DNA of 64,000 nucleotides from NCBI GenBank assembly GCA_027486795.1, contig JAIXOI010000049.1, positions 62,001 through 126,000 of the forward strand, read 5' to 3'. The notes beneath the pieces are model-generated. The model saw nothing but the letters and a program-made list of their open reading frames with translations, made no database searches and was not told where the DNA came from. This DNA comes from Sphingobacteriales bacterium. Lineage in GTDB: Bacteria; Bacteroidota; Bacteroidia; Chitinophagales; CAIOSU01. The translations under genes and the position numbers were made by a program. Positions 5,949 through 50,301 of the stretch are shown piece after piece. Every line of letters starts with the position of its first letter. Position 1 is the first letter of the stretch.

Positions 5949-7082
5949 TTATAAGCTTGAAATAACGTTCTTTTTACTCTCTACTTCGGTATCAACACTT
6001 CCGTTCTCTACAGCAGGAGTTACGGTTGTTGAGTCAGTTGCCTCGGTTGGCGCAGTTCCTTCTGCTGGCGTTGCTGCAGGAGCCGGGTTTAGTGTTGCTT
6101 TAATGGCATCATAAAACGGTTTTTGCTCAGCCAACCATGCGTTGTATTCTTCGGTTTCTAAAACTTTAACAATAAAGCGCATATTGTAGTGGGCACGTCC
6201 GCACAGCTCGGCACAAGCCAACTCATAATCAAATTCTTGATTGCCACGCAAGTCGCGCATTTCTTGTGTGCTATGGGTAGGCGTCATCCAAAACTGGGTA
6301 GGAATACCTGGCACACAGTCCATTTTAATCATAAAATGGGTTAGATAAAAACTGTGCAATACGTCTTTAGCTCCCAATTTAAAAAGCACGGGCTTGTTTT
6401 TTTCCAAGACAATTTCAGTAGGCATTAAATCGTCATGACTTTTTGCATCGTTCCAATCAATGCCCAATGAGTTTTCGCCGCTTATCAATTCAAACTCTCG
6501 TTTGCCTAACAACGAATCACTACCAGGATAACGCACCGTCCAGTTAAATTGTTGAGCGGTTACCTCTACTATTCGAGCATCTGCTGGGGCATCGGCGGTT
6601 ATTTCATACCAAGTTTCGATACCACGTGCTACCAAAACGGTAAGTACGATGGCCGGAATCACGGTCCAAACTATTTCTAGTTTGTTATCGTGCGAAAAGT
6701 GCTGGGCTTTGTTGCCTTTGCGAGCACGATATTTGTACGAAAACCAAAACAATAATGCTTGCGTAATTACGAAGGCGATACCGCATATAATGGATGTAAT
6801 CCAGAACATGCTGTTTATAGAGTCGCCATGTTTTGATGCAGGAGTAAAGTTCCTATTGCCTTGCAGTAATTTATCCTCCACAAGCCACCATCCCAAAAAT
6901 ACGGCTATCAAGCCTGTAATCATTAGGAACATCATTAAAAAACCATGGGTGTTGTTAGTGCTTTCAGAAGTGTCACCTTCTTTATCACCTTTCAATATAC
7001 CCATCAACTCACTTGTTTTCGCCAATTGAAAGACAATTACGAAAATGAGTACAATTGCTACTATACCTATCAAAGTATTCAT
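5949..7082 (-). CDS. ctaC: cytochrome c oxidase subunit II (CuA subunit)
   Basis: A 377-residue protein with the cupredoxin CuA domain. Ligands visible are His243 (VLHSF), Cys290, Glu292, Cys294, His298 and Met301 in CAELCGRAHYNM. Three hydrophobic segments precede it (about residues 2-20, 47-66 and 93-115), one more than the usual hairpin. The C-terminal 65 residues are low-complexity, rich in Ala, Thr, Pro and Glu, with no CxxCH. The oxidase is therefore aa3 rather than caa3 and must receive electrons from a separate or tethered cytochrome c. It lies 11 bases upstream of coxA and 9 bases downstream of actF. Confidence 0.95.
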   Translation of the reverse strand: MNTLIGIVAIVLIFVIVFQLAKTSELMGILKGDKEGDTSESTNNTHGFLMMFLMITGLIAVFLGWWLVEDKLLQGNRNFTPASKHGDSINSMFWITSIICGIAFVITQALLFWFSYKYRARKGNKAQHFSHDNKLEIVWTVIPAIVLTVLVARGIETWYEITADAPADARIVEVTAQQFNWTVRYPGSDSLLGKREFELISGENSLGIDWNDAKSHDDLMPTEIVLEKNKPVLFKLGAKDVLHSFYLTHFMIKMDCVPGIPTQFWMTPTHSTQEMRDLRGNQEFDYELACAELCGRAHYNMRFIVKVLETEEYNAWLAEQKPFYDAIKATLNPAPAATPAEGTAPTEATDSTTVTPAVENGSVDTEVESKKNVISSL

Positions 7083-7091
7083 TGCGGACTA

Positions 7092-8330
7092 TTATTTTAA
7101 CGTATGATGCGTGATACTTTCTCTCAAATAAGGGTTGTTCACCGGTATCAATGACTGCTTGGTAAGGGTATTGAACACTACGAAAATGAATATGCCAATA
7201 AATGTTGAAAGCATTCCAAATTCAATCAATCCGAAACCTGCATGCGACTCGTGTGTTTTGTGGTCTGTCATGGTACCTGGGGCAATTTGGTTGTAAAAAT
7301 CTATCCAGTGACCAAGGAACAACACAACAGCAACAAACACCAATAGCTCAACATTCCTTTTTGATTTCCTCCTAATTAGAACAAGGAACGGGAAGAAAAA
7401 GTTGACGGATAAGCTGGTAAAAAATAGAAATTTAAATAGCGGATTGCTGAAACGTTGTGCGAAGTATGCGGTTTCTTCTGGCATGTTGCCATACCATATC
7501 AACATAAACTGGCTAAACCATAGGTAGGTGTAGAAAACGCTGAATCCGAACATGAACATTGCCAAGTTGTGGTAGTGTTCTTCGTTTACATCTTTCAAGT
7601 ACCCTTGTGTTTTTAGATAAGCTACAGTTACTATCATTATGGCAAGCGCACCTACCATATAGCTAGCAAAATTGTACCATCCAAATAGCGTGCTATACCA
7701 GTGTGGGTCTACACTCATTGATATATCCCAAGCACCAGTTGAACTGGTTACTGCAAAAATCAAGATAAAAATGGCAGCAATGTATTTACTTTTCTGGTAC
7801 GTTGCCGATACGCCAAGGATATCTTCTTTCTTTGAGATGTTGCGCATGGCAAATATTGCGGCAGTCCAAAGCGCTACATATGATACAATACGTATGGCAT
7901 AGAACACTGGGTTTAAGTAAACCGATTTGCCTGTAGTTTCTGCAATTAGCGCATCATAATTAGGGCTTGCAGGATCGTGTATACCTTCAGCAGCCCAGAA
8001 GTACAAGTGGTGACCGTGAAATAGCGTGCCTACAAGTATGATTAAAAGAAATATACCCATTACTGGCACTATAGAACCCATAGCCTCTGGAATGCGCTTA
8101 ATGAGTACGTGCCATCCACCGTAACCAATTTGGTGGGCCGCAATAAGAAATATAGAAGCGAGGCCGATACCTGTAAAATAATAGGTATCGATCAATAAGT
8201 TCGACCATACCCTGTCAATACCGTGTCCACCGGCTAGGAGAGCCCCAACGATGACAGCCAAAAGACCGATACCTAGAAATAAGGCTGCGGTTTTTTTGAG
8301 TCCGGATGAAAAATTATATGTTTCAGTCAT
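7092..8330 (-). CDS. actF: alternative complex III subunit ActF (NrfD-like membrane subunit)
   Basis: A 412-residue polytopic protein with about ten helices, recognised as the second quinol:cytochrome c oxidoreductase membrane subunit from its position after the ActE cytochrome and motifs such as AMFMFGFSVFYTYLWFSQ (about residues 256-273), followed by a FMLIWYGNMPEE segment. It resembles ActC in fold but shares little sequence with it. ActF helps form the membrane core of alternative complex III; whether it binds quinone itself is unsettled in the family. It precedes coxB by 9 bases, which physically links complex III and oxidase genes. Confidence 0.9.
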   Translation of the reverse strand: MTETYNFSSGLKKTAALFLGIGLLAVIVGALLAGGHGIDRVWSNLLIDTYYFTGIGLASIFLIAAHQIGYGGWHVLIKRIPEAMGSIVPVMGIFLLIILVGTLFHGHHLYFWAAEGIHDPASPNYDALIAETTGKSVYLNPVFYAIRIVSYVALWTAAIFAMRNISKKEDILGVSATYQKSKYIAAIFILIFAVTSSTGAWDISMSVDPHWYSTLFGWYNFASYMVGALAIMIVTVAYLKTQGYLKDVNEEHYHNLAMFMFGFSVFYTYLWFSQFMLIWYGNMPEETAYFAQRFSNPLFKFLFFTSLSVNFFFPFLVLIRRKSKRNVELLVFVAVVLFLGHWIDFYNQIAPGTMTDHKTHESHAGFGLIEFGMLSTFIGIFIFVVFNTLTKQSLIPVNNPYLRESITHHTLK

Positions 8331-8375
8331 TGCGAAATGCGCTTATAGTTTATTGGGATGTTGCGTCGTTACTTA

Positions 8376-9095
8376 TTAATTACCGGTTGCGGTGCTATCT
8401 GCTGGTGCTGCTGCCGTGGTAGAGGCTGCATTTTTAGCAAATGGTCCTACGTTTACCAATTGTTGAATGTAGTAAATAACCTTCCACCTATCATCGGTAG
8501 TTAAAACGTATGAATAGCTACCCATTAAGTTTTTACCATAGGTAATGCTATGGAACATTTGTCCTTCCGAAATGGTGGGTAAACGATCGGCATAAGATGG
8601 CACAGGTGGGTAGGCTTGGGTTTGCACAATGCTACCGTCGCCCAAACCTTTCTCGCCATGGCATACCATGCAGTGTATGGTGTAAAGGTATTTACCACGC
8701 TCCAACACTTCTTTTTCAGGTTGGAAAGGGTTCTTCAAATTGTTGGTAGAAGCAAGGTAGTTGCTATCGGTATTGGCGTAATGGGTTTTGTATAGATACG
8801 AGGCCAACACTTTATCATCGCCAATATTGGTGGCTGGCAACAAACCTCTAGCAATTGTGTGCGCTACGGGCAAGCGAGCCTCAAAGCTATCTACCGCACC
8901 AAGGCTATCCTTGCCAAATGATGGGTTTTTAGTGTATGTTTCGTAAGCCTGAGAGTATGCCATATCTGGCACAAAAGTGCGTCCTGGGGTGCGGTTGTCG
9001 CTGCCACAAGATGCAAGGGCCAACATCAGGGCACCTACAAGGCTCAATCGTACTGTTTGATGAATATTCATGTCAACCAAGTGGTTATCTTTCAT
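8376..9095 (-). CDS. actE: alternative complex III subunit ActE, monoheme cytochrome c lipoprotein
   Basis: A 239-residue lipoprotein cytochrome. A hydrophobic signal ends in the lipobox LASC (Cys30), so the mature protein is probably lipid-anchored on the periplasmic side. The heme c motif CMVCH is at 142-146, with GEKGLGDG following, and a methionine near 193 (KNLMGSYS) is a plausible sixth ligand. The C-terminus is Ala/Thr/Ser-rich. The first start leaves only 3 bases after actD; an internal ATG at 9071 would give a more typical lipoprotein signal of 21 residues, so the start is uncertain. The subunit is thought to pass electrons out of ACIII to the oxidase. Confidence 0.92.
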   Translation of the reverse strand: MKDNHLVDMNIHQTVRLSLVGALMLALASCGSDNRTPGRTFVPDMAYSQAYETYTKNPSFGKDSLGAVDSFEARLPVAHTIARGLLPATNIGDDKVLASYLYKTHYANTDSNYLASTNNLKNPFQPEKEVLERGKYLYTIHCMVCHGEKGLGDGSIVQTQAYPPVPSYADRLPTISEGQMFHSITYGKNLMGSYSYVLTTDDRWKVIYYIQQLVNVGPFAKNAASTTAAAPADSTATGN

Positions 9096-46670: not shown

Positions 46671-46812
46671 TATGGGTAACGGTTTGGGCAGCCTTGAGCA
46701 CAACTTTCTTTGTGTCAAAACATGGTAGCTCCTATACCCATGGGCGTGGTTGGGTGATTGCGCTGCCCATCAGTAGAAACCCTATTTTAGGCACCTTGTG
46801 TAATACAGTTGA

Positions 46813-46820
46813 TACCTTCG
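46813..46820 (+). promoter_or_regulatory. probable -7 box of the first secreted paralogue gene
   Basis: TACCTTCG differs from TAnnTTTG at one position and lies 24 bases before the ATG at 46845. It favours that ATG over an in-frame upstream alternative at 46809. Confidence 0.35.
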
Positions 46821-46844
46821 CCGTTCTATTGCAAATTGCCCCAT

Positions 46845-47690
46845 ATGAGAAATACACTCCTGTTGCTAGTTGTATGTTTTGCCCTGCCTACTTTCGCGGC
46901 TAATACGGTTTCATTGAAAGATGCATTAGCCCAAGGCCTAATAAGTGTAAAGGCCATTGGTGAAGGCGGATATACGGGTAAGGTAATGGCCCTTGAAATA
47001 AGCAGCCTGTACAAGAAAGACCTTGTGGTAGATATACCTGCTGGCCTGCAACTCAACTCAGAAGATAGCACCATACAGGACCTTATTATTACCGACACGC
47101 GCCTTTTGGAGCTGGCTGCTGGTAGCAAGCGCAGGCTTATTATCAATGCCATGTGCATACAGCCGAGCAATGGGTCGCCGTATGCCAATAGCGTGTTTAT
47201 ATTAGGTGCCATGGCCAACGATACGTTGGTAAAACTAGCCCAGTACTTAGCCACTAAAGGCTACCAAGACGATTTGGGCCAATCGGCCATTTGGGCTATG
47301 GTAAATAACGAAGGGCTCGAAAACGTATATGGCAGCGACCCAACCCGCCTGCAAGATTTGCTACAATACATGCACCTGCTTACAGGTAAGCCACTGCCAT
47401 GGTACAACAAAGAGAAGGCCGCCCCGCCTGTGGGCCAAGTATATACCCAAGAACCTGCCATCATCCATGCCAACTTTGAGTTTAAGCTAGCCATGGCGGG
47501 CACGGCACGCTTAGCCATATACAATGAGGCTGGCGAAGTGGTGTACGTTATCAAGGATAACATGATGGTAAAAAGTGGCAAAAGCACCATGAAATTCCGC
47601 ATTGAGGTGCGTGGGTACGAAGTGGGCAAATACTTTGTGCGCCTTGAGCTTAATGGCAAGTTGCAAGAAGAGAAGGTGTTTGAGTTGTAA
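46845..47690 (+). CDS. secreted protein of unknown function, paralogue 1 of a tandem pair
   Basis: A 281-residue exported protein (signal RNTLLLLVVCFALPTFA, about 2-18). The N-terminal domain (about 22-165) contains VSLKDALAQGLI, IPAGLQLNSED, QDLIITDTRLLEL, AMCIQPSNGSP and LGQSAIW. The linker includes GLENVYG and PWYNKEK. A C-terminal beta domain (about 205-281) has the style of FlgD/T9SS-like Ig modules (LAIYNEAGEVVYV, GKYFVRLELNGK) but lacks the YPNP start of sorting domains. The next gene encodes a protein of exactly the same length. No family with known function recognised. Confidence 0.85.
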   Translation: MRNTLLLLVVCFALPTFAANTVSLKDALAQGLISVKAIGEGGYTGKVMALEISSLYKKDLVVDIPAGLQLNSEDSTIQDLIITDTRLLELAAGSKRRLIINAMCIQPSNGSPYANSVFILGAMANDTLVKLAQYLATKGYQDDLGQSAIWAMVNNEGLENVYGSDPTRLQDLLQYMHLLTGKPLPWYNKEKAAPPVGQVYTQEPAIIHANFEFKLAMAGTARLAIYNEAGEVVYVIKDNMMVKSGKSTMKFRIEVRGYEVGKYFVRLELNGKLQEEKVFEL

Positions 47691-47735: not shown

Positions 47736-48581
47736 ATGAAGAATTTATTGCTAATAATGACATTGGTTGCCAGCCTATCTGTTATTGAGGCAAAGGATAT
47801 CGATTTGCAAGATGCCATTGAACAGGGTATTGTAAAAGCTAGTGTTAAAGGTGTCGGTGGGCACCTGGGTAAAGTATTGGCACTAGAGGTAACCAATATT
47901 CAAAATAGAACTGTTTACATCAATATCCCTGTCGGGCTTCAGTTCCTTTCAGAGGATGAGGGGCTGCAAGACCTTATTAATACCCAAGGTACACGCTTGG
48001 TAATAGCCGCCGGCAGAGTAAATAAACTAATGCTAAATGCCATGTGTATACAACCCAGCAATGGTTCACCTTCGGTGGGGAGTAGCTTTTTAGTAGGTAC
48101 ACTTGCTACAGGGGCATTGCTAGAGTTGGTGCAATATATCTCCCAGAAACAGTACCTAGACAATCTCGGGCAATCGGCGGTATGGACTTTGATACGGGGC
48201 GAAGGGCTAGAAAACGTCTATGGGCCAGACCAAAATAAACTGAATGATTTGGTGCAGTTTATGAGCCAGTTAACAGATAAAGAAGTGCCGTGGTACAACA
48301 AAGAAAAACTACCGCCGCCTCCCGGACAAGTATTTAGCGCCGAGCCATCTATATTGCATGGCATCTATACCTTTCATTTGGAGCAGAAAGGTTTTGCCAA
48401 TTTGGCGGTGTACGACTCAACGGGTAAAGAGGTGTTTCTGTTTTTAGAACACTTTGAAGTACTACCCGGCGATAACCGCCTTAAATTTAAGCTTACCGTA
48501 AAGGGCTATAAAGCTGGTAAATACTATGCGCGGCTGTTTCTAGATGGGGTAATGAAGGAGGAGAAAATGTTTGAGATATAG
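47736..48581 (+). CDS. secreted protein of unknown function, paralogue 2 of a tandem pair
   Basis: A 281-residue paralogue of the protein encoded just upstream, starting 45 bases after its stop. It shares AMCIQPSNGSP, LGQSAVW, GLENVYG, PWYNKEK and PPxGQV, and both end in KxFE-hydrophobic (KMFEI here). Differences are spread over the whole length, so this is an old duplication, not a recent one. The signal peptide (KNLLLIMTLVASLSVIEA) is intact. Conserved single cysteine in AMCIQ. Probably an envelope protein; no catalytic site recognised. Confidence 0.85.
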   Translation: MKNLLLIMTLVASLSVIEAKDIDLQDAIEQGIVKASVKGVGGHLGKVLALEVTNIQNRTVYINIPVGLQFLSEDEGLQDLINTQGTRLVIAAGRVNKLMLNAMCIQPSNGSPSVGSSFLVGTLATGALLELVQYISQKQYLDNLGQSAVWTLIRGEGLENVYGPDQNKLNDLVQFMSQLTDKEVPWYNKEKLPPPPGQVFSAEPSILHGIYTFHLEQKGFANLAVYDSTGKEVFLFLEHFEVLPGDNRLKFKLTVKGYKAGKYYARLFLDGVMKEEKMFEI

Positions 48582-48692
48582 GGTTAAGCATGCCCCTTTA
48601 GCAAGCTAATCGCCGCGAAGCCAAACTATGGTTAATTGAGTTGAAAGATTTTGGCGGCGGAGTTGTTCAGGGCTGGTGGAAGGTGGTGTGAG

Positions 48693-49511
48693 CTATTCAT
48701 ATATATTCCAACTGACGCAATTTAGCACGCCATCTTGTTTGGCAATTTCGGTGGCATATACTGGTAATATTTTACTTTCGGGAAAGCATTTCCCAATAAA
48801 ATCAAGTACTATTTCATCTTCTTTTAAACCAAATGAGGGTATCAGTATAAGCCCCTTAACCTGCAGATAATTGATGTAAATTCCGACTGCTGTTTTTGTC
48901 AAGACCATTGGCATTTCGGCACAATTTAGTTTGTTCTCTTTTAACACTTTAGTAAGCCGGTACCGAAAAGAGGGAGATTCTTTAGAAAGGTCATTTACTA
49001 AAACCGTATCTCCATTTATAAACCTAATCATTCCATCTGCATGACCTGTATAATCATCATAGTGATGAGGCACGATAATGACAGATGCATTTAAAATTTC
49101 CTCTAACTCTGATAATAACTGGAAGGGTTCAATATTTGGATTCTCGTCAAATACTTTATCTGTTACTATTACTTTCTCAGCACACTTAATCACATTACCT
49201 CCGTCAAGATTGATACTACTAAAACGCGGCTCAACTCCATTTTTTAAGCATACAATTTTAGGGTCGGATTTCAGATTTTTGTATTTATGTTCATTCAAGT
49301 AACTAGGGTCATACCTAAATTGAATAAATTCCTCAGTAGAAACTTGCACTGGCATGTAATCTCTGCACCAAATATCTTTGGTGCTAGCTAAATTTTTTAC
49401 TACTACATTGTTTCCACTTAAAATTTTGTCTATTGCCCGAAACTCCTTGATATACTTTGATGCAAAAAGCTCAGAGAAATAGACGGTATTAGTTTCCCAA
49501 TCTGGTATCAT
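48693..49511 (-). CDS. agmatine deiminase family protein (guanidino-group modifying enzyme)
   Basis: A 272-residue pentein-fold protein of the peptidylarginine/agmatine deiminase superfamily. Catalytic elements are IWCRDYMP (Asp51), LDGGN near 103, GHADG (His157, Asp159) and the nucleophile Cys265 in GVLNCVSWN, eight residues from the C-terminus. It is shorter than classical agmatine deiminases (about 340-370) because it lacks their N-terminal part; similar short versions exist in Bacteroidota. The substrate could be agmatine or another guanidine compound. It overlaps the upstream gene by four bases and is AT-richer than its neighbours. Confidence 0.88.
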   Translation of the reverse strand: MIPDWETNTVYFSELFASKYIKEFRAIDKILSGNNVVVKNLASTKDIWCRDYMPVQVSTEEFIQFRYDPSYLNEHKYKNLKSDPKIVCLKNGVEPRFSSINLDGGNVIKCAEKVIVTDKVFDENPNIEPFQLLSELEEILNASVIIVPHHYDDYTGHADGMIRFINGDTVLVNDLSKESPSFRYRLTKVLKENKLNCAEMPMVLTKTAVGIYINYLQVKGLILIPSFGLKEDEIVLDFIGKCFPESKILPVYATEIAKQDGVLNCVSWNIYE

Positions 49512-50104
49512 TCTGCCAATTCGTTTATTTCTAAACCTATCCAGTGACTTTCGGGATAAGATAATTTTCCTTTGTCAGTAAAGTAGCGGTAAGGCTTGCT
49601 GAGAAATTTATCGTCAATAATATAATTTTTAGTTACAGCAGGTTTTAACCCATGGCGGGTTGTGGTGTATATTGCAGGTGCTATAAATGAGTTGGGGACA
49701 AGTTGAATAGTGCCTTGTATTTCGGCCTTCCCTAATAACTCGAACAATCTAAACCAAACTTTTAGTGGGCCATTAATATACCTACTTTTACCATCAAGTT
49801 TGTCATCTAAAATACCTCTTATTAGTATTCCTCCTACTTGGCCGCTTTTTTCGTCTCCTTCAGCCTGAAAGGTAATATCTACACCTTGATTGTGCATACG
49901 CCATTCACCAGCATTGCGGTTATGCTCGTGGGTGGTATAATCTTGGTGCTCATCACTCCAAAAGTAGAATTCAATCTCAGTGATGCGTAACTTATGTTCA
50001 TTTACTTTTATGGCTGAACGAAATATGTCCTTAGCTATTCGATCGAAAGAGATTTTTATAGAAGCCTCATCCGTTCTATCTATTTTTAAATTTAATTTAG
50101 TCAT
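49508..50104 (-). CDS. unknown protein with alkyladenine-DNA-glycosylase-like motif order
   Basis: A 198-residue cytoplasmic protein. I do not recognise it as a named family. The order of motifs follows the AAG/MPG fold: LRITEIEFYFW (40-49; compare RIVETEAY, where the second Glu is catalytic and Tyr stacks on the base), then HEHNRN (59-64), a glycine in HNQGVD, GGILIRGI (91-98), NGPLKVWFRLF (111-121) and TRHG with KPYRYF (149-175). Glu45 and Tyr47 would be the active-site equivalents. This alignment is by eye and inferential. Its last four bases overlap the agmatine deiminase start, so the two are translationally coupled. A full consensus promoter precedes it. Confidence 0.72.
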   Translation of the reverse strand: MTKLNLKIDRTDEASIKISFDRIAKDIFRSAIKVNEHKLRITEIEFYFWSDEHQDYTTHEHNRNAGEWRMHNQGVDITFQAEGDEKSGQVGGILIRGILDDKLDGKSRYINGPLKVWFRLFELLGKAEIQGTIQLVPNSFIAPAIYTTTRHGLKPAVTKNYIIDDKFLSKPYRYFTDKGKLSYPESHWIGLEINELAE

Positions 50105-50139
50105 TTTATTTTGTTTTAAAATTAATAATTATTATACTA

Positions 50140-50169
50140 CAAAGCTAAATGATTTAATTGAGAGAACAA
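50140..50169 (-). promoter_or_regulatory. promoter of the AAG-like/deiminase cassette
   Basis: On the minus strand TTG (50169-50167, at the end of a T-run), a 19-base spacer and TAGCTTTG (50147-50140). This is one of the best consensus promoters in the window, 36 bases upstream of the ATG at 50104. Confidence 0.65.
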
Positions 50170-50220
50170 AAAAAGTGGATATTTATGGGTTCGGGCTAGC
50201 TATTTCCCCCACAGCAAGGG

Positions 50221-50284
50221 GATTGCTTCAAGCCTGTCTACTTCATAGTTAGGGGAAGGCTGTTCAGGCTTTCGCAATGACGGG
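50221..50284 (-). repeat. dispersed GTCATTGCGAA...GAAGCAATC repeat (inverse copy)
   Basis: On the minus strand it reads CCCGTCATTGCGAAAGCCTG ... TTGAAGCAATC, matching 41486-41548 (CGTCATTGCGA ... GAAGCAACC) at both ends with a different middle. Such CGTCATTGCGA...GAAGCAATC elements are recurrent in many bacterial genomes. It sits between the cassette promoter and the acnA terminator. Confidence 0.7.
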
Positions 50285-50301
50285 TTGGGTGGAATACCAA
50301 C

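Follow-up and report, generated by a model that had tools for sequence, protein, structure and literature searches.

A short deiminase recurring beside several unrelated DNA-acting proteins suggests an undescribed defense against foreign DNA

Several unrelated DNA-acting proteins share one recurrent neighbor, a short and divergent deiminase from the guanidine-modifying superfamily, an arrangement that suggests an undescribed defense against foreign DNA. We describe it from a gene pair in a 64,000-nt stretch of a Sphingobacteriales genome (here called the window), in which the deiminase gene follows that of an AAG-like protein; elsewhere, the deiminase is constant, while the partner is swapped for a deoxyinosine-glycosylase/UDG-like or an HNH-like protein. 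The initial annotation had coupled the deiminase to the AAG-like protein. That pairing is real, but at least two other kinds of protein can take the place of the AAG-like one, and we therefore define the system by its deiminase. The pairing recurs, occurs as fusions, swaps partners, keeps its active sites, is patchily distributed and polymorphic for insertion, and lies in defense-rich surroundings. We consider it likely that a constant deiminase and an exchangeable DNA-acting partner are used in conflict with mobile DNA. That the two would make up a mobile two-part module against foreign DNA, with the trimming by the deiminase discussed below included, is a tentative reading that falls short of probable. 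The pair and the elements around it are as follows.

49508 to 50104, minus strand: first gene, predicted AAG-fold DNA-glycosylase-like protein of 198 aa (open reading frame, AlphaFold2 model, VIA-align, hhalign, conservation)
48693 to 49511, minus strand: second gene, short PF04371 (guanidine-modifying superfamily) deiminase of 272 aa (open reading frame, Pfam, model, conservation)
49508 to 49511, minus strand: 4-nt ATGA overlap of the 198-aa and 272-aa genes (sequence)
50140 to 50170, minus strand: Bacteroidota-type promoter, TTTG-N19-TAGCTTTG, just upstream of the pair (pattern match)
50272 to 50281, minus strand: dispersed GTCATTGCGA repeat, within the inserted block and upstream of the promoter (sequence count)
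48584 to 50295, no strand: inserted block, absent at the same place in relative G003 (blastn of the window against locus L223)
49970 to 49972, minus strand: codon for E45 of the 198-aa gene (sequence)
49817 to 49819, minus strand: codon for R96 of the 198-aa gene (sequence)

The layout originally reported for the pair (a four-base overlap, a full-consensus promoter, a higher AT content than in both neighbors, a position between unrelated single genes, and a dispersed repeat just upstream) is borne out in every respect. The open reading frames overlap as described, and the promoter, read from 50170 to 50140, matches what we take to be the Bacteroidota-type consensus. With an 18- to 21-nt spacer, this consensus occurs five times on both strands of the window, the pair's own site included; a sigma70-type scan found no site at the position of the pair's promoter. 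The GC content is 0.37 in the 198-aa gene and 0.35 in the 272-aa gene, whereas it is 0.43 and 0.49 in the neighboring genes, and stretches of 1712 nt as AT-rich as the inserted block occur at 3 of 623 positions in the window. The flanking genes, for a 281-aa protein and an aconitase, are unrelated single genes. The GTCATTGCGA repeat is present in three copies in the window (at 8326, 41487, and 50272) versus 0.08 expected; relative G002 (L224) has two copies close to the corresponding position, none were found in G003 (L223) or G001 (L225), and a longer form of the repeat had no match in the window's genome.

At this locus, the pair is polymorphic among close relatives. In G003, which belongs to the same genus, the flanks are 94.6% and 94.9% identical to the window at the DNA level (blastn), and about 11 nt lie between them, versus 1712 nt in the window. 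Because flanks of about 95% identity stand only about 11 nt apart in G003, the pair is either a clean 1.7-kb AT-rich insertion in the window or a loss in G003. The 198-aa protein has no detectable homologue in the four other genomes of the genus (G001 to G004); by protein search, 1 of 59 other relatives and, across the phylum, 4 of 394 other genomes carry a homologue, and neither tblastn against plasmids and phages nor a first scan of genome contigs with this protein gave a match. Profile searches of 395 genomes of the class recovered the AAG-like family in 15 and the short deiminase branch in 23, the latter at 145 bits or more, a cut that was our own choice. Both gene families are patchily distributed. 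As a separate matter, the window also carries tandem genes at 46809-47690 and 47736-48581, which encode proteins about 46% identical; both are present in G003, and G001 and G002 have a single match only.

The 198-aa protein matched no Pfam family at E values up to 1, so that the PF02245 model went unmatched, and it had no PADLOC match and no convincing match in NCBIfam or among PDB sequences. Recognition from sequence alone was thus ruled out, and assignment to AAG therefore needed comparison of folds and profiles. When its AlphaFold2 model (alignment of 31 sequences, pLDDT 84) was compared with known structures using VIA-align, the seven best rows were all human AAG, at Z scores from 12.8 to 11.8, with an rmsd of about 3.2 and about 153 of the 198 residues aligned; the next row was at Z 4.0. 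The profile of the family aligned with that of 13 canonical Bacteroidota AAGs at a probability of 92.5 and an E value of 5e-7 (hhalign), against a probability of 2.1 in the control comparison with the deiminase profile. The name AAG-like, chosen from the letters of the window, thus agrees with both comparisons. In the hhalign alignment, E45, Y47, H59, and R96 pair with canonical E42, Y44, H53, and R101, which we take to be the catalytic Glu and the base-contacting Tyr, His, and Arg; E45, Y47, D55, H59, R96, G112-P113, and R150 align with invariant or nearly invariant positions of canonical AAGs. Among 46 AAG-like rows, position 45 is Glu in 43 (the remaining three being gaps in partial rows), neither R96 nor R150 ever varies, and position 59 is His in 26 and Tyr in 12. 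Since the canonical stretch YG-x-H-x-x-F-N is replaced by G-x-D-I-T, the base pocket probably differs from that of canonical AAG. Judged by its model, the protein has an AAG fold, keeps AAG-type active-site residues, and is predicted to act as a glycosylase. It resembles AAG/MPG (PF02245) in fold and in the aligned Glu, Tyr, His, Arg, Gly-Pro, and Arg positions, but differs in falling below Pfam detection and in sharing an operon with a deiminase. Some AAG-like proteins (L040 6735-8000, L038, L114, L065, L048) are extended at the N terminus by about 200 residues that match no Pfam family, and in L094 a similar stretch is seemingly a separate gene (6706-7302) near the deiminase.

The 272-aa protein matches PF04371 at 91.5 bits, far above the cut-off of 25 (E 7.7e-26), in keeping with its first placement in the agmatine-deiminase family. 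Its model (pLDDT 93) is closest to agmatine iminohydrolase (Z 29.1) and also matches PPAD (Z 26), PAD4 (Z 20.7), and the amidinotransferases 6u1r (Z 20.0) and 1jdw (Z 19.1). By conservation, the catalytic residues are D51, D103, H157, D159, and C265, each present in at least 92 of the 95 deiminase rows: D51, H157, D159, and C265 are never substituted (one row has a gap at D51 and three at C265), and D103 changes once, to Glu, the other 94 rows having Asp. These proteins share the fold and the catalytic Asp, His, Asp, and Cys with AguA and the Porphyromonas-type PAD, but they are shorter (about 270 to 290 aa versus 330 to 370), score far below the AguA cut-off wherever tested (46.3 bits versus 381.8 for TIGR03380 in the case of the 272-aa protein), and are linked to DNA-acting genes. 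In 21 ordinary agmatine-deiminase-type rows from the same class, the one in the window's genome among them, the positions that are D103, N106, M53, N264, and W268 in the short deiminase hold Glu, Ser, Gly (or Ile), His, and Gln or Met, respectively. The median pI of the short deiminases is 5.2, and those of the partners are 6.6, 8.5, and 8.9. The 272-aa protein belongs to a distinct, divergent short branch of PF04371 with an intact active site.

The initial annotation had looked to repeated linkage of the two genes in unrelated loci, as opposed to co-occurrence among close relatives only, and the pairing does recur in unrelated genomes. In four of the five genomes in which protein search found a homologue of the 198-aa protein, the gene after it encodes the short deiminase; at the fifth (L004, 1453-3202), transposase-like genes directly follow the AAG-like gene, at the deiminase's expected place. 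Eight genomes are common to the AAG-like (15) and short-deiminase (23) sets of 395 (Fisher p 1.8e-7, the two draws being apparently identical). A deiminase-family gene adjoins the AAG-like gene in 9 of the 15 AAG-like genomes, counting a split deiminase in G641 and a divergent one in G516; the other six are G291, G773, G759, G548, G400, and G447. Conversely, 16 of 24 short deiminases in the class draw have a partner (hand tally).

We then widened the analysis to all loci of the short deiminase. Five short deiminases were used to scan genome contigs, from which the best 80 of 543 confirmed relatives were taken, and further matches came from viral contigs (3), plasmids (3), and phage records (7, six of them weak); matches below 140 bits were left out before counting, and merging of loci more than 95% identical reduced 132 loci to 97. 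A partner lies within 250 nt of the deiminase at 71 of these 97 loci: AAG-like at 35, HNH-like at 22, and UDG-like at 14, the HNH and UDG counts being partly circular within the first 80 loci, since the models were built from them. A helical domain is the sole neighbor at two loci, and 24 have no recognized partner, including two with less than 300 nt of upstream sequence and L106, in which an AAG-like gene overlaps a frameshifted deiminase. The HNH profile also matched three near-identical viral loci. Exactly 4 nt are shared by 29 same-strand partner-deiminase pairs; several loci, L088, L160, L170, and L171 among them, have the opposite gene order; and the two parts form a single chain in L173 (AAG-like and deiminase, 514 aa) and in L053 (HNH-like and deiminase, 412 aa). 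None of the three partners was found at 21 canonical agmatine-deiminase loci (4.4 to 7 kb each, L226 3 kb). Chance adjacency is ruled out by this control, the fusions, and the Fisher test, and an essential role for AAG is ruled out by the HNH- and UDG-like genes that take its place. Because both stand-alone deiminases and stand-alone AAG-like genes exist, neither part always needs the other.

The two alternative partners are themselves divergent members of their families. The UDG-type partner in L083 passes the DNA-deoxyinosine glycosylase model TIGR04274 (94 bits, cut-off 80), L086 reaches 77.9, L041 reaches 20.6, and L067 has no match, most UDG-like partners being below the cut-off. The HNH-like partner, which Pfam HNH matches weakly (E 0.016 to 0.22), keeps four zinc cysteines and a terminal C-x2-C-N-N-x-K, with C93, C96, C145, C148, N149, N150, and K152 invariant in 18 rows. 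A nearly invariant Arg stands where the canonical HNH motif, as we take it, has a His after Asp; for this reason, its nuclease activity is uncertain. In Bacteroides phage DAC19 (L174), a canonical-looking HNH gene (6891-7391) is followed directly by a divergent deiminase-like gene (7518-8570; 350 aa, 116.8 bits), which gives the pairing a counterpart on the phage side. A small unclassified domain also keeps company with the deiminase at several loci: a separate gene encodes it upstream in L051 and L108, and it is fused to the deiminase in L159 and L172; in L110 it lies upstream of the HNH gene.

Partner exchange is seen most directly between close pairs. The deiminases of L085 and L087 are 91.0% identical, yet their partners, UDG-like and HNH-like, are unrelated; L041 (UDG) and L043 (HNH) repeat this at 85.5% deiminase identity. 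A deiminase tree of 95 rows requires no fewer than 23 switches between AAG, HNH, and UDG partners, this being a quick search with many weak branches from which rows shorter than 200 aa were left out; the two swaps above are independent of the tree.

The genomic surroundings are consistent with a role in defense. For a defense scan, 145 neighbor genes were drawn at random from 262, and as controls we took 103 genes at 20 arbitrary places in 15 genomes carrying one of the two gene families. The module neighbors matched 398 PADLOC families and the controls 20, these figures being counts of families rather than genes, with many models for some restriction families. Named neighbors include GmrSD, Mrr, NERD, and AbiEii-type genes, and putative HsdM, HsdS, and HsdR were assigned by reading sequences. 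Such defense-rich neighborhoods bear out the anticipated linkage, and for the earlier idea of a small defense unit the evidence is that of genomic context only. Membership in a known defense family was ruled out, since neither the 198-aa nor the 272-aa protein matched any family in PADLOC-DB 2.0.0 at E values up to 1. Three plasmids carry the short deiminase. The phage record with the fusion also contains a gene resembling a conjugation coupling protein, for which reason this record may represent a conjugative element. Some partnerless deiminases occupy a repeated chromosomal place beside apparent housekeeping genes.

How such a module could work is suggested by analogy. Among known systems, the Brig3-BapA operon, together with Brig1, comes closest (PMC13160076). 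In Brig3-BapA, a hydrolase strips glucose from a phage base and a DNA glycosylase then removes the base; the Brig3 glycosylase is repurposed from repair and is described there as emerging from uracil DNA glycosylases. Brig3-BapA is a two-gene operon of a DNA glycosylase and a hydrolase in a defense island. The present pair, too, forms an operon and has a glycosylase-like and a deiminase fold; here, however, the constant part is a guanidine-superfamily deiminase, and its partner can be of the AAG-fold, the UDG-type, or the HNH-like kind. By this analogy, both proteins would act in sequence on one DNA substrate: the deiminase, a divergent short enzyme of its superfamily, would hydrolyze a group of guanidine or amidine type, which a modified base in invading DNA would most likely carry; the exchangeable partner (the AAG-fold glycosylase in the window, a deoxyinosine-glycosylase-type protein of the UDG superfamily, or an HNH-like zinc protein) would then excise the trimmed base or cut there. 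Phage protection has been shown for Brig3-BapA (PMC13160076), whereas the deiminase pair is known from genes and predicted folds, and we infer both its substrate and a protective role against phage. A candidate base would be deoxyarchaeosine, which carries an amidine. It is known as a DNA base in phages (PMC6884629), although the main text of that paper, for the terms searched, mentions no Bacteroidota phage, and the literature that we searched named no base with either a guanidine or an amidine in the DNA of phages from Bacteroidota. Against the module reading stand the 24 of 97 partnerless loci, the 6 of 15 AAG-like genomes without an adjacent deiminase, the lack of the canonical His in the HNH-like partner, and the acidic pI of the deiminase, unexpected in a DNA binder, which makes it harder to see this enzyme working on DNA unaided, although the partners are more basic. 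Titles and abstract openings in the open-access literature linked this deiminase family to no DNA glycosylase or HNH gene in defense, which is weak evidence of absence.

Several other readings accommodate part of these data. That the deiminase has been turned onto DNA, where it would make or unmask a specific base that swappable, unrelated effectors then excise or cut, we regard as doubtful; the base would be a purine that has lost its amino group, or else one from which an amidine or guanidine has been trimmed, for instance deoxyarchaeosine. The architecture would then be one of a constant base-converting enzyme with a plug-in DNA-destroying partner. The main rival, which we think unlikely, has the deiminase itself deaminate purines, either within DNA or among free nucleotides, with hypoxanthine made from adenine or xanthine made from guanine (which contains a cyclic guanidine), and has each partner recognize the product. 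The convergence of two unrelated glycosylase partners on deaminated purines speaks for it, given that the L083 partner passes the deoxyinosine glycosylase model and that the AAG fold is known with inosine-containing DNA (title of entry 7xfh); so do the departures from agmatine deiminases at several active-site neighbors (D103, N106, M53, N264, and W268). On the other side, most UDG-like partners match the deoxyinosine model weakly or, in L067, not at all, the enzyme is acidic, and unrestrained action would damage host DNA. Moreover, the short deiminase keeps the acidic residues that presumably hold the cationic guanidinium in its relatives, and we know of no member of the superfamily that acts on a nucleobase. 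Less likely still, the deiminase could convert an arginine in its partner, or in some cellular or phage protein, and so restrain or trigger a DNA-damaging toxin, much as in toxin-antitoxin pairs; small, overlapping, mobile genes, of which the first is variable and the second constant, would suit such a role, and the fold does match protein-arginine deiminases. One enzyme would, however, have to recognize three unrelated folds, the folds of the partners seem to have no one arginine in common, and a single-chain fusion and stand-alone deiminases would be unusual for an antidote; nothing points in particular to the peptide-arginine modification that the initial annotation had offered.

We give even less weight to ordinary repair or metabolism, in which a base-excision enzyme would be the fortuitous companion of a small-molecule deiminase. 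The AAG and deoxyinosine glycosylase families do serve repair, some deiminases stand alone, and the window's genome has no canonical PF02245 gene; but canonical AAG is missing anyway from 20 of 40 sampled genomes, and patchy distribution, insertion polymorphism, partner swapping, plasmid-borne cases, and defense-rich places fit ordinary repair poorly. Improbable, finally, is a pair that installs or remodels a DNA base, with the glycosylase-like fold as base exchanger and the deiminase-fold enzyme as amidinotransferase. Amidinotransferases share the deiminase fold, and a glycosylase-like fold occurs in thymine hypermodification; the deiminases nonetheless match far better (Z 29 versus 20), no downstream gene recurs widely beside the pair (the largest downstream cluster is 5 of 57), and three unrelated DNA-acting partners, one of them HNH-like, suit attack better than a single synthesis route.

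If the module reading, trimming included, is right, deimination would be an added chemistry among the enzymes that bacteria aim at foreign DNA. It would predict guanidine- or amidine-bearing bases in some Bacteroidota phages or plasmids, or deaminated bases made during defense. Natural pairs with nearly identical deiminases and different partners make the module directly testable. The data also suggest that many Bacteroidota genes annotated "agmatine deiminase family protein" do something else. Stand-alone short deiminases lie repeatedly beside an ElbB-like gene (L084/L155, L091/L153, L151, L164), in two cases with an NYN-domain gene on the other side, and these could possibly be a domesticated branch that has no DNA-acting partner.
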